Source: Thermococcus radiotolerans (lineage in GTDB: Archaea > Methanobacteriota_B > Thermococci > Thermococcales > Thermococcaceae). Taken from it: DNA of 64,000 nucleotides. Under the pieces are notes generated by a model, which searched no databases, had not been told where the DNA came from, and was given only the letters and a program-made list of their open reading frames with translations. The position numbers and the translations under genes were made by a program. Numbering within the stretch: position 1 is the stretch's first letter; each line of letters opens with the position of its first letter. Positions 58,419 to 61,983 of the stretch are shown one piece after another. The DNA is taken from positions 1,550,001 to 1,614,000 of the forward strand of contig NZ_CP015106.1 in NCBI RefSeq assembly GCF_002214565.1, written 5' to 3'.

Positions 58419-59399
58419 ATGCACGCGACGCTGAGGGAGATACGGAAAACCCCAGAAGGGATACTCACCGCCCAGAGGGCCTTCGAGGACTTCGTAACAT
58501 CTCACGACTTTCGGTTACCGAGGGAGATAGTTTACACTGGTTGCGGCAGCTCGCACTTCCTGTCGCAGCCGCTGGCCATGGCAACCACCCGCCTCGGGGG
58601 CAGGGGGCTCAGCGCCCCCTGCTCCGAACTTCTTTATTCGCGTGAATGGTATCCGATAGGAAACCCTGAACTTCTCGTCGCCATATCGCGCTCTGGCGAG
58701 ACAACCGAGGCGGTTAAGGCCCTTAACACGCTCGACGTTCCCAGGTTCGCCCTCACCGCCTACGAGAGCACCCTGTCGAGAGAAGCCGACCACGCCCTAA
58801 TCGTCCCGGCCCACGAGGAGAGCGTCGTCATGACCCACTCCTTCACGGCCTTCTACTTCGCATTCCTGCAGCTTCTCCTCCATTCGTACGGGTGGGAAAC
58901 CTACGACGCGGAACTCGTCTCATCGCTAACGAAGGAAGTCCTGCGGAGCGAGGACTACATCAGGGAAATCGTTAGCGACTTCGACTTCAGAAACGTCATC
59001 TTCCTCGGCTCGGGGATACTCTATCCCGTGGCACTTGAGGCCATGCTGAAGATGAAGGAGATGGCCCTCTTCTGGAGCGAGGCCTATCAGACCTTTGAGG
59101 TCAGGCACGGCTTCAAGTCCATAGCAGACGAAGGAACCCTCGTAGTTCTGCTCGTGGACGAGCCCCTCGACTGGCACGAAAAACTCACGGAGGAATTCCA
59201 GGGGCAAAAAGCAAGGGTTCTCACCGTTGGAAGGCGCGACACTGGGGCAGATTACTTTATCGAGGTTCCGGAGCTGAGTCCACCGACCAACGTGGTTCTC
59301 TACCTGCCTGTTATCCAGCTCCTCGCCTACTACAAGGCCGTTGGGCGCGGACTCAATCCGGACAGGCCGAGGTTTCTGAGCAAGGTGGTGAAGTGGTGA
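58419..59399 (+). CDS. glmD: Glucosamine-6-phosphate deaminase, SIS-domain type
   Basis: A 326-residue protein of the SIS (sugar isomerase) family: [16 protein letters not shown] (about 41-56), the phosphosugar-binding [16 protein letters not shown] (about 88-103) and the second SIS domain [37 protein letters not shown]. This is the archaeal GlmD type, unlike the NagB fold of bacteria. It converts glucosamine 6-phosphate to fructose 6-phosphate and ammonia, the last step before glycolysis. Reads on directly from the importer genes. Confidence 0.9.
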
Positions 59400-61753
59400 T
59401 GGTTATGAAGGTTGGGCACGACGGCAGGGTTTACCTTATCGATGGCGAGAGGGTGGTGATCTACGGCGGAACGCTCCAGTTCTTCCGCGTTCCGAGGAGA
59501 CATTGGCGCGACAGGCTGGAAAAAATGAAGAGGCACGGCCTCAACACCGTCGATACCTACGTCGCCTGGAACTGGCACGAGCCCGCGAAGGGTAATCTCG
59601 ACTTCACCGGGGAGACGAGCCCGGAGAGAGACCTGGTGGGCTTCCTTGAGCTGGTTCAAGAGATGGAGATGTACGCCATCGTCAGGCCCGGCCCGTACAT
59701 CTGCGGCGAGTGGAGGAACGGCGGAATCCCCAACTGGCTCATCAACGAGCACCCCGAGATACTCGCCAGGGGGCCGGACGGGGACCTGCCGCGGGACATC
59801 TATTATCCACCCATCACGTACCTGCATCCGACTTATTTGGAGGCCGTCTCGGAGTGGTATGATGCGGTCCTGCCGGTAATTCAGGACTACCTCCACACCA
59901 ACGGCGGGCCTATAATAAGCGTCTCGATCGATGACGAGCCCTCATACTGGGAAACGATATTCCAGCCGTTCCTCACCGATTACAACGATGTCGTCGTTAA
60001 ACCCGGCGGCTTCTGGGAGGGATGGCTCAGAGAGAACTACTCCCTTGAGACGCTCGCGGAGCGGTACGGGGAAGAAATCTCGGACTACGGTGAGGTTAAA
60101 CCCCCGACCGACCCATCGGAGCCCCTCACAAAGCTCCTCGACTGGCACCGCTTCAAGATATGGATGACCAACCGCTACGTCGAGACCCTCTACGACCACC
60201 TGAGGCGCTACGTTGATGTCCCGATAAGCATACTCGACCCCTACCTCCTCCTGGTGGCGTGGAAACACTTCTACCGCCACGTGAGAGAGAGGAACCTCGA
60301 TATTCACCTCTGGACGGAGTTCTGGTACTCCTTCTACCGCTCCTTCGACTTCAAAGAGGACAGGCTCGGGCACATCTATTACAAGACCGGAATCTACCGC
60401 TTCTACCAGAAAAAACTCGGAACGCCGCCGCTGAGTATAGAGACCCAGGTCTCGCTGGCCCACACAATAGAGCCGGACGAGGCCGAGCTGCTCTACGCCC
60501 TTCTTCCGGCCCTCGGAATCCACAACATCAACTACTACCTCTACGCCGGCGGAGAGAATCCCGAAGGCTACGAGTCGCACAACGGAATAAGCTGGGACGT
60601 TTACTCGCCGATAGGCCTTGATGGAACTGAGAGACCGCACGTCGAGCCGATTAAATGGCTCGGCGAGTTCCTGAGGGGTAACCCCGGTTTCGTGGAAAGC
60701 CGGCTCAAGCCGAGGGTCGCCTTCGGGGGCTACGAACCCTACGAGCCCCTCGCGGTGTGGGGGCTTAGAGGCAACCTCAAGGAGAGCGTCAACCTCAACG
60801 AGTACCTCTTCGGCGAGCGTGGGCTTTTGACGCTCCTGGCGATGAGCAACGTGCCTTTCGACGTCCTTGACCTTGAGGAGGCGACCGTCGAGGAGATGTT
60901 AGCGTACGACCAGCTATGGGTCTACAGCCTCGATTTCATGGCTAAGGACGTTCAGAACAAGCTGGTAGAGTTCGTTGAGCGAGGCGGAAATCTTGTGGTC
61001 CTCCCGATGCTCCCCTATCTTGACGAGAACATGAAGCCGTACTCCGCCCTAGCAGACTATCTCGGCGTTGAGGTTGAGTTTGCAGAGGCGAGGGACAACT
61101 TCAGGCTCATCCCCTTCGTCAGCGTCTCCTCGGACGGGATTGACAGGATGGTAACCAGGAATGTTGCTAGGGAAGTCAGGGGTGGAACGCCGGTAGCCTT
61201 CGCCAACGGCAAGCCCGTCGGGGCGCTCGTTCGGAAGGGAAGGGGAAGCGCGATAGTGCTCGGCTTCAGGCTCCAGTACTTCAGCAGCCACCACGACCTC
61301 CACAGAAAGTTCGTTGATAAACTGCTGGCCCTTCAGGGTGTTACAAGAGATTTTGAGGTCACAGATAGCGACATGATAGCGATTCCCCGGGGGAACTATC
61401 TAGTTCTCGCCAATCCGCGCGGCCACAGGGTATTTGGGAAGGTCAGGTACAGAGGAATCGAGGTTCCAAAGCTCATGGATGGAATAGAGATGAAAAAGCG
61501 TGGCGTTCTCTTCCTGCCCTTCGGGGTCAGATACGGCGACGTTGAGGTCGTTTACTCCACGGCGACCGTTCTCGGCAGGAACGGCGACGTGCTTCGCCTC
61601 CGCAACCATCTCTCCGGCTTAAGTGAGGTGGCGCTGAGAAACGTTGAGGACGTCAGGGTCGTCGGCGGTAAAATCGTGGACGAGTCCCTCTCGGATGGTG
61701 TTCTTACCATAGTGGTCGAGCACAGGCCTGGGAACTTTGAGCTGGAGTTCTGA
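59399..61753 (+). CDS. glmA: Exo-beta-D-glucosaminidase, GH35
   Basis: The product is about 784 residues; ATG 59399 overlaps the glmD stop (TGATG), ATG 59405 is an alternative. YGGTLQFFRVPRRHWRDRLEKMKRHGLNTVDTYVAWNWHEP is the GH35 N-terminal signature (only in part quoted here as family marks GLNTVDTYVAWNWHEP). Likely catalytic glutamates lie in ISVSIDDEPSYWE and SIETQVSLAH. Thermococcus GlmA (TK1754 from memory) has the same length and cuts glucosamine from the non-reducing end of deacetylated chitobiose. It is the last gene of the operon; a T-rich stretch follows at about 61765-61780. Confidence 0.9.
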   Translation: MVMKVGHDGRVYLIDGERVVIYGGTLQFFRVPRRHWRDRLEKMKRHGLNTVDTYVAWNWHEPAKGNLDFTGETSPERDLVGFLELVQEMEMYAIVRPGPYICGEWRNGGIPNWLINEHPEILARGPDGDLPRDIYYPPITYLHPTYLEAVSEWYDAVLPVIQDYLHTNGGPIISVSIDDEPSYWETIFQPFLTDYNDVVVKPGGFWEGWLRENYSLETLAERYGEEISDYGEVKPPTDPSEPLTKLLDWHRFKIWMTNRYVETLYDHLRRYVDVPISILDPYLLLVAWKHFYRHVRERNLDIHLWTEFWYSFYRSFDFKEDRLGHIYYKTGIYRFYQKKLGTPPLSIETQVSLAHTIEPDEAELLYALLPALGIHNINYYLYAGGENPEGYESHNGISWDVYSPIGLDGTERPHVEPIKWLGEFLRGNPGFVESRLKPRVAFGGYEPYEPLAVWGLRGNLKESVNLNEYLFGERGLLTLLAMSNVPFDVLDLEEATVEEMLAYDQLWVYSLDFMAKDVQNKLVEFVERGGNLVVLPMLPYLDENMKPYSALADYLGVEVEFAEARDNFRLIPFVSVSSDGIDRMVTRNVAREVRGGTPVAFANGKPVGALVRKGRGSAIVLGFRLQYFSSHHDLHRKFVDKLLALQGVTRDFEVTDSDMIAIPRGNYLVLANPRGHRVFGKVRYRGIEVPKLMDGIEMKKRGVLFLPFGVRYGDVEVVYSTATVLGRNGDVLRLRNHLSGLSEVALRNVEDVRVVGGKIVDESLSDGVLTIVVEHRPGNFELEF

Positions 61754-61793: not shown

Positions 61794-61815
61794 GCCCCTG
61801 CGAGAACTTGGGAAC

Positions 61816-61871
61816 GCGATGATGAGTGATGGGCGAACCGATGGATGAGGAAGGAAAGGTGATCTCTGAGC
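61816..61871 (+). ncRNA. Predicted C/D box guide RNA (23S A-loop region target)
   Basis: Box C ATGATGA at 61819-61825, a 12-base guide 61826-61837, box D' CCGA (one base from CTGA) at 61838-61841, box C' ATGAGGA (one base from consensus) at 61845-61851, a 14-base guide 61852-61865 and box D CTGA at 61866-61869. The first guide is complementary to GUUCGCCCAUUA-like 23S sequence beside the A-loop (11 pairs with one G-U, from my memory of archaeal 23S), which would direct methylation to the C about E. coli 2558. I could not assign a good target to the second guide. Two terminal base pairs can form. Confidence 0.6.
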
Positions 61872-61903: not shown

Positions 61904-61961
61904 CGGGATGATGATTTCAGCCTTGTCTGAGGCTCGTGATGATGGAGTGACGGACTGACCG
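61904..61961 (+). ncRNA. Predicted C/D box guide RNA (two 16S rRNA targets)
   Basis: All four boxes match consensus: C ATGATGA 61908-61914, D' CTGA 61927-61930, C' GTGATGA 61936-61942, D CTGA 61955-61958, with two guides of exactly 12 bases. The D' guide (TTTCAGCCTTGT) is complementary over 11 bases to CAAGGCUGAAA of 16S rRNA; by the N+5 rule it would methylate G902 (E. coli numbering). The D guide (TGGAGTGACGGA) is complementary over 11 bases to CCGUCACUCCA of archaeal 16S rRNA and would methylate U1406. In both cases the base next to the box does not pair. Target sequences are from memory of conserved rRNA. A TATA-like box precedes it and T6 follows. Confidence 0.8.
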
Positions 61962-61977: not shown

Positions 61978-61983
61978 TTTTTT
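61978..61983 (+). terminator. T6 tract ending the guide RNA region
   Basis: TTTTTT 20 bases after box D of the second RNA; archaeal transcription often stops at such tracts without a hairpin. Confidence 0.5.

Follow-up and report, generated by a model that had tools for sequence, protein, structure and literature searches.

A conserved sR60 C/D box RNA of Thermococcus radiotolerans with predicted guides to helix 27 and helix 44 of 16S rRNA

A complete C/D box small RNA lies on the plus strand of the window, as we call the whole 64-kb stretch of DNA analysed here (Table 1). Its neighbour on the 5' side is a gene for a GlmA-type exo-glucosaminidase (Pfam GLMA_C and GLMA_2nd), its neighbour on the 3' side is a cation-efflux gene on the same strand, and a second small RNA, resembling sR1, stands just upstream of it. 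The TTTTAA element in front of the RNA is unchanged in 23 of 23 aligned Thermococcus loci, including those in which an insertion splits off the upstream RNA, and it probably serves as the TATA box of a promoter belonging to the RNA itself. The six-T run on the other side is not conserved across the aligned Thermococcus loci. Scans for sigma-70 promoters and intrinsic terminators found nothing, as expected because the host is archaeal.

Table 1. Positions of the small RNAs, their parts and adjacent features in the window
Feature	Position	Strand	Remarks
GlmA-type exo-glucosaminidase gene	59393–61753		5' neighbour
sR1-like C/D box sRNA	61815–61871	+	Rfam RF01152; window scan; 32 nt 5' of sR60
sR1-like D' guide GUGAUGGGCGAA	61826–61837	+
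sR1-like D guide AGGAAAGGUGAUCU	61852–61865	+
TATA-box-like TTTTAA	61878–61883	+	about 24 nt 5' of the sR60 5' end; invariant in alignment; putative promoter element
sR60 C/D box sRNA including terminal stem	61904–61961	+	Rfam RF01309
Terminal stem, 5' arm CGG	61904–61906	+	3 bp with CCG at 61959–61961; covariation
Box C AUGAUGA	61908–61914	+	sequence, pattern search
D' guide UUUCAGCCUUGU	61915–61926	+	predicted target 16S G902, h27 loop and 3' strand
Box D' CUGA	61927–61930	+	sequence, pattern search
Box C' GUGAUGA	61936–61942	+	sequence, pattern search
D guide UGGAGUGACGGA	61943–61954	+	predicted target 16S U1406, h44 5' strand
Box D CUGA	61955–61958	+	sequence, pattern search
Six-T run 3' of sR60	61978–61983	+	possible terminator, from sequence

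A cmscan search against Rfam assigned the RNA to family RF01309 (sR60) with 67.4 bits and E = 2e-14, covering positions 1–55 of the 55-position model, for which the curated gathering score is 50 bits. The initial annotation had placed the RNA by reading the letters, and its coordinates and box assignments were all correct: the four boxes are exact and both guides are 12 nt long. It had also held that this arrangement was unlikely to arise by chance, and indeed four exact boxes with two 12-nt spacers occur a single time in the window and in 0 of 100 dinucleotide-preserving shuffles of it. The RNA displays the features of archaeal C/D box sRNAs, namely a RUGAUGA C box, a CUGA D' box, C' and D boxes, guide spacers of about 12 nt and a terminal stem (CGG/CCG) that closes the C/D k-turn. 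It has the same boxes, guides and stem as RF01309 over the full length, whereas its D'–C' spacer is 5 nt rather than the 3 nt of the model, a difference likewise seen in 20 of 32 distinct sequences from its own genus. A plain MFE fold gave z = -0.4, which is uninformative because this is a k-turn RNA. Judged by its sequence, the element is a real guide RNA that belongs to a catalogued family and is not new; the class is well known, sR60 is an ordinary representative of it, its mechanism is the known one, and the find is routine in genomic terms.

For the assignment of targets, the organism's sole 16S gene was fetched and aligned to E. coli rrsB for numbering. The D' guide pairs with 16S positions 845–856 (GCAAGGCUGAAA; 898–909 in E. 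coli numbering) through 11 Watson–Crick pairs and one G–U pair, and the D guide pairs with positions 1351–1362 (CCCGUCACUCCA; 1402–1413 in E. coli) through 11 contiguous Watson–Crick pairs, its box-proximal base being unpaired. The N+5 nucleotides are G849 (E. coli G902) and U1355 (E. coli U1406), and, as in archaeal C/D RNAs generally, both guides form a Watson–Crick pair there. Among shuffled guides, 0.02% (D') and 0.06% (D) reached an 11-bp match, and 0/1000 and 1/1000 equalled the hybrid energy of the two sR60 guides. The initial annotation had claimed complementarity over 11 bases for both guides and had derived G902 and U1406 by the N+5 rule; the first point was confirmed with the organism's own 16S gene and the second turned out to be exact. 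High scores at 609 and 1115 in a scan for 23S targets were discarded as the same 16S sites found again, since the scanned '23S' locus includes flanks. From the E. coli structure, we take the h27 target to be the GCAA loop and 3' strand, and the h44 target to be the 5' strand at the decoding site. The two sites are about 500 nt apart in the organism's 16S sequence. The two helices had been said to lie near each other, and in the Pyrococcus abyssi 30S subunit h27 and h44 do line one cavity (PMC7005279). Like RNAs of the long-range chaperone type, sR60 has two guides to sites that are far apart along the sequence yet close in the structure. The earlier reading of a dual-guide C/D RNA with 16S targets at G902 and U1406 is supported by these sequence comparisons. 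As a separate observation on the 16S locus, the 16S gene is closely preceded by an H/ACA guide RNA (Rfam Pab19) in the same orientation (L001:3123-3226), and a snoRNA has likewise been reported upstream of the 16S gene in Thermococcus kodakarensis (PMC4247193).

When other Thermococcales were searched, as the initial annotation had proposed, 90 of the 94 Thermococcaceae genomes, from six genera, carried sR60 with a score above the RF01309 cut-off, and 73 of the 74 good-quality genomes of this family held a match at E ≤ 0.001. All four boxes are kept across 55 distinct sequences, positions 4–11 of the D' guide are invariant, positions 2–11 of the D guide are invariant in at least 54, and the outer guide positions vary; the pair at N+5 is invariant at both target sites. 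In the terminal stem, both inner pairs form in every one of the 55 sequences (G–C in 43, C–G in 9, A–T in 3) and the outer pair in 49. At the level of sequence, this stem covariation, together with the conservation of guides and boxes, is direct evidence that selection acts on an RNA. Both 16S target sites are present in all Thermococcus genomes whose 16S gene was recovered whole. The T. kodakarensis copy of sR60 probably sits at about 1626305–1626359 of genome G011, whose 16S gene (2022864–2024352) falls inside the position published for that species; Table 1 of PMC9014305, which gives circular RNAs, does not include it. When 84,980 species' genomes were scanned for the dual-guide pattern, 24 matches were returned, each carrying the label Thermococcus, Thermococci, Thermococcaceae or Thermococcales, and no named genome outside the Thermococcales group carried the exact pattern. 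An RNA bearing the two sR60 guides in swapped order was absent from 115 genomes of the phylum. Weak RF01309 matches outside Thermococcaceae (24–29 bits) were not counted as sR60: their guides differ (for example UAUCGACAGCGU and GAGAUGGGCGGU), and against the one 16S recovered they did not match the h27 site well and gave only a shifted, partly mismatched pairing in h44. Within the family, one genus (g9, presumably Pyrococcus) has a D' guide that lacks pairing beside box D', at positions 1 and 3 in most members, a mismatch that could weaken G902 methylation. In two further genera (g8 and g10; L139-L148, L158), sR60 no longer adjoins the sR1-like RNA, and the terminal stem of sR60 has the reversed form CCC/GGG.

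The upstream RNA scored 54.2 bits in the window scan against RF01152 (sR1), whose gathering score is 45 bits, and 41.5 bits, below the cut-off, in a stricter whole-genome scan. It precedes sR60 by 31–33 nt in 21 of 24 genomes (Thermococcus) and by about 750 nt in the other 3; clustering of C/D genes has precedents among archaea (PMC7994747). In genome G001 (L014:743-1398), the gap of about 750 nt holds two small minus-strand genes that by eye resemble a VapC-type/PIN-domain toxin and an antitoxin. The D' guide of the sR1-like RNA pairs with 16S positions 1347–1358 of the organism, placing N+5 at C1402, and 3 of 1000 shuffled guides equalled this pairing. A Cm has been reported exactly at the equivalent position, Cm1376 of P. 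abyssi, by cryo-EM and mass spectrometry (PMC7005279), which fits the Cm1402 predicted for this RNA. The D guide has a weak 8-bp match to the 16S 3' end (GAUCACCU), the anti-Shine–Dalgarno end, that was equalled by 146 of 1000 shuffled guides; its AGGUGAUC core is also retained in genus g9. The 16S sites of the sR1-like RNA and sR60 overlap by 8 nt (1351–1358 in the organism, 1402–1409 in E. coli), and therefore both RNAs cannot occupy the same 16S molecule together. This overlap of targets is the sole non-routine point that we found.

With the architecture, family, conservation, stem covariation and own-16S complementarity of sR60 in hand, we infer its proteins, its promoter and its methylation activity from its class and its sequence. 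The RNA would probably be transcribed from its own promoter and would assemble with L7Ae, Nop5 and fibrillarin, as other members of the class do. Its guides would bind pre-16S rRNA, the D' guide at h27 and the D guide at the 5' strand of h44, and the bound RNP would direct 2'-O-methylation of G902 and U1406, the chemistry and the N+5 positions being those expected of the class. While bound, sR60 would keep both strands open and close together and, more speculatively, may help to order the folding of the decoding region. Both the methylation of the two sites and the co-folding of h27 and h44 are plausible. We put the probability at about 85% that this is the Thermococcales sR60, working as a standard 2'-O-methylation guide for G902 and U1406 and possibly also in folding.

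The published modification data call for caution here. The P. abyssi 30S study, which combined a 3.2 Å cryo-EM map with mass spectrometry, reports Am373, ac4Cm250 and Cm1376 (E. coli 1402), and its tables have no entry for a methyl at U1380 (E. coli 1406) or at the equivalent of G902 (PMC7005279); our literature search returned no paper naming sR60 together with Pyrococcus, nor any methyl at G902 or U1406. One could suppose that sR60 is mainly an RNA chaperone, whose guides bridge h27 and h44 during assembly with partial or no methylation. That the P. abyssi 30S lists neither methyl yet does list the Cm at 1402 (PMC7005279) would agree with this, as would the Pyrococcus D' guide, mismatched beside box D' while its core at positions 4–11 is kept; the targets are also 500 nt apart in sequence and adjacent in the folded subunit, and long-range two-guide C/D RNAs have already been proposed as chaperones (PMC4644070). 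However, absence from a 3.2 Å map, which could miss ribose methyls, is weak evidence and no refutation, and neither site shows any variation in the N+5 pair, which is what one would expect if the methyl is important. A predominantly chaperone role is unlikely in our judgement. We regard as quite unlikely a more elaborate scheme in which sR60 and the sR1-like RNA form a conserved two-step device that builds the decoding site, the two having to bind in turn because their h44 sites overlap by 8 nt, one leaving Cm1402 and sR60 mainly holding h27 and h44 open together before handing them over, while methylating them stably to a small extent or not at all.

Two further explanations concern the element itself. 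It lies on the same strand as the cation-efflux gene and upstream of it, so that a k-turn in the 5' UTR could in principle act as a cis regulator of that gene; but a separate TATA-like element stands immediately 5' of the efflux gene, and the guides and boxes are conserved whereas the flanks are not, the sequence 3' of sR60 varying between species, which makes such a role very improbable. The idea of a chance resemblance or a decayed sRNA gene is refuted by conservation, the stem covarying and the guides staying invariant throughout six genera, besides the Rfam E value of 2e-14 and the lack of any chance match in shuffles, and its probability is practically negligible.

For sR60 as a methylation guide, the outcome is that a clean prediction is confirmed: two sites of ribose methylation in the decoding region of Thermococcales ribosomes, assigned to an RNA that almost the whole family retains. 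Because T. kodakarensis is genetically tractable, the methylation and chaperone roles of a two-site guide RNA are directly testable there; the interest of sR60 lies in this testability, not in surprise.

Among the closest known systems are archaeal C/D sRNAs that bridge remote 16S sites, such as sR17 (A915/U1371) and sR15 of Nanoarchaeum equitans, in which one RNA likewise carries two guides to sites that are well separated in sequence but lie close together once folded (PMC4644070). Its targets, G902 in h27 and U1406 in h44, differ from those of these bridging sRNAs. For h44, the same study, which covers seven species and no Thermococcales, gives only predictions at the equivalents of 1408 and 1494 (PMC4644070). 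Eukaryotic C/D snoRNA sites in the P-site region of h44 (Cm1639 in yeast, Cm1703 in human) fall in the same rRNA region as the sR60 target, and their archaeal equivalent is the Cm1402 predicted for the sR1-like neighbour, whereas sR60 points 4 nt away, to 1406.
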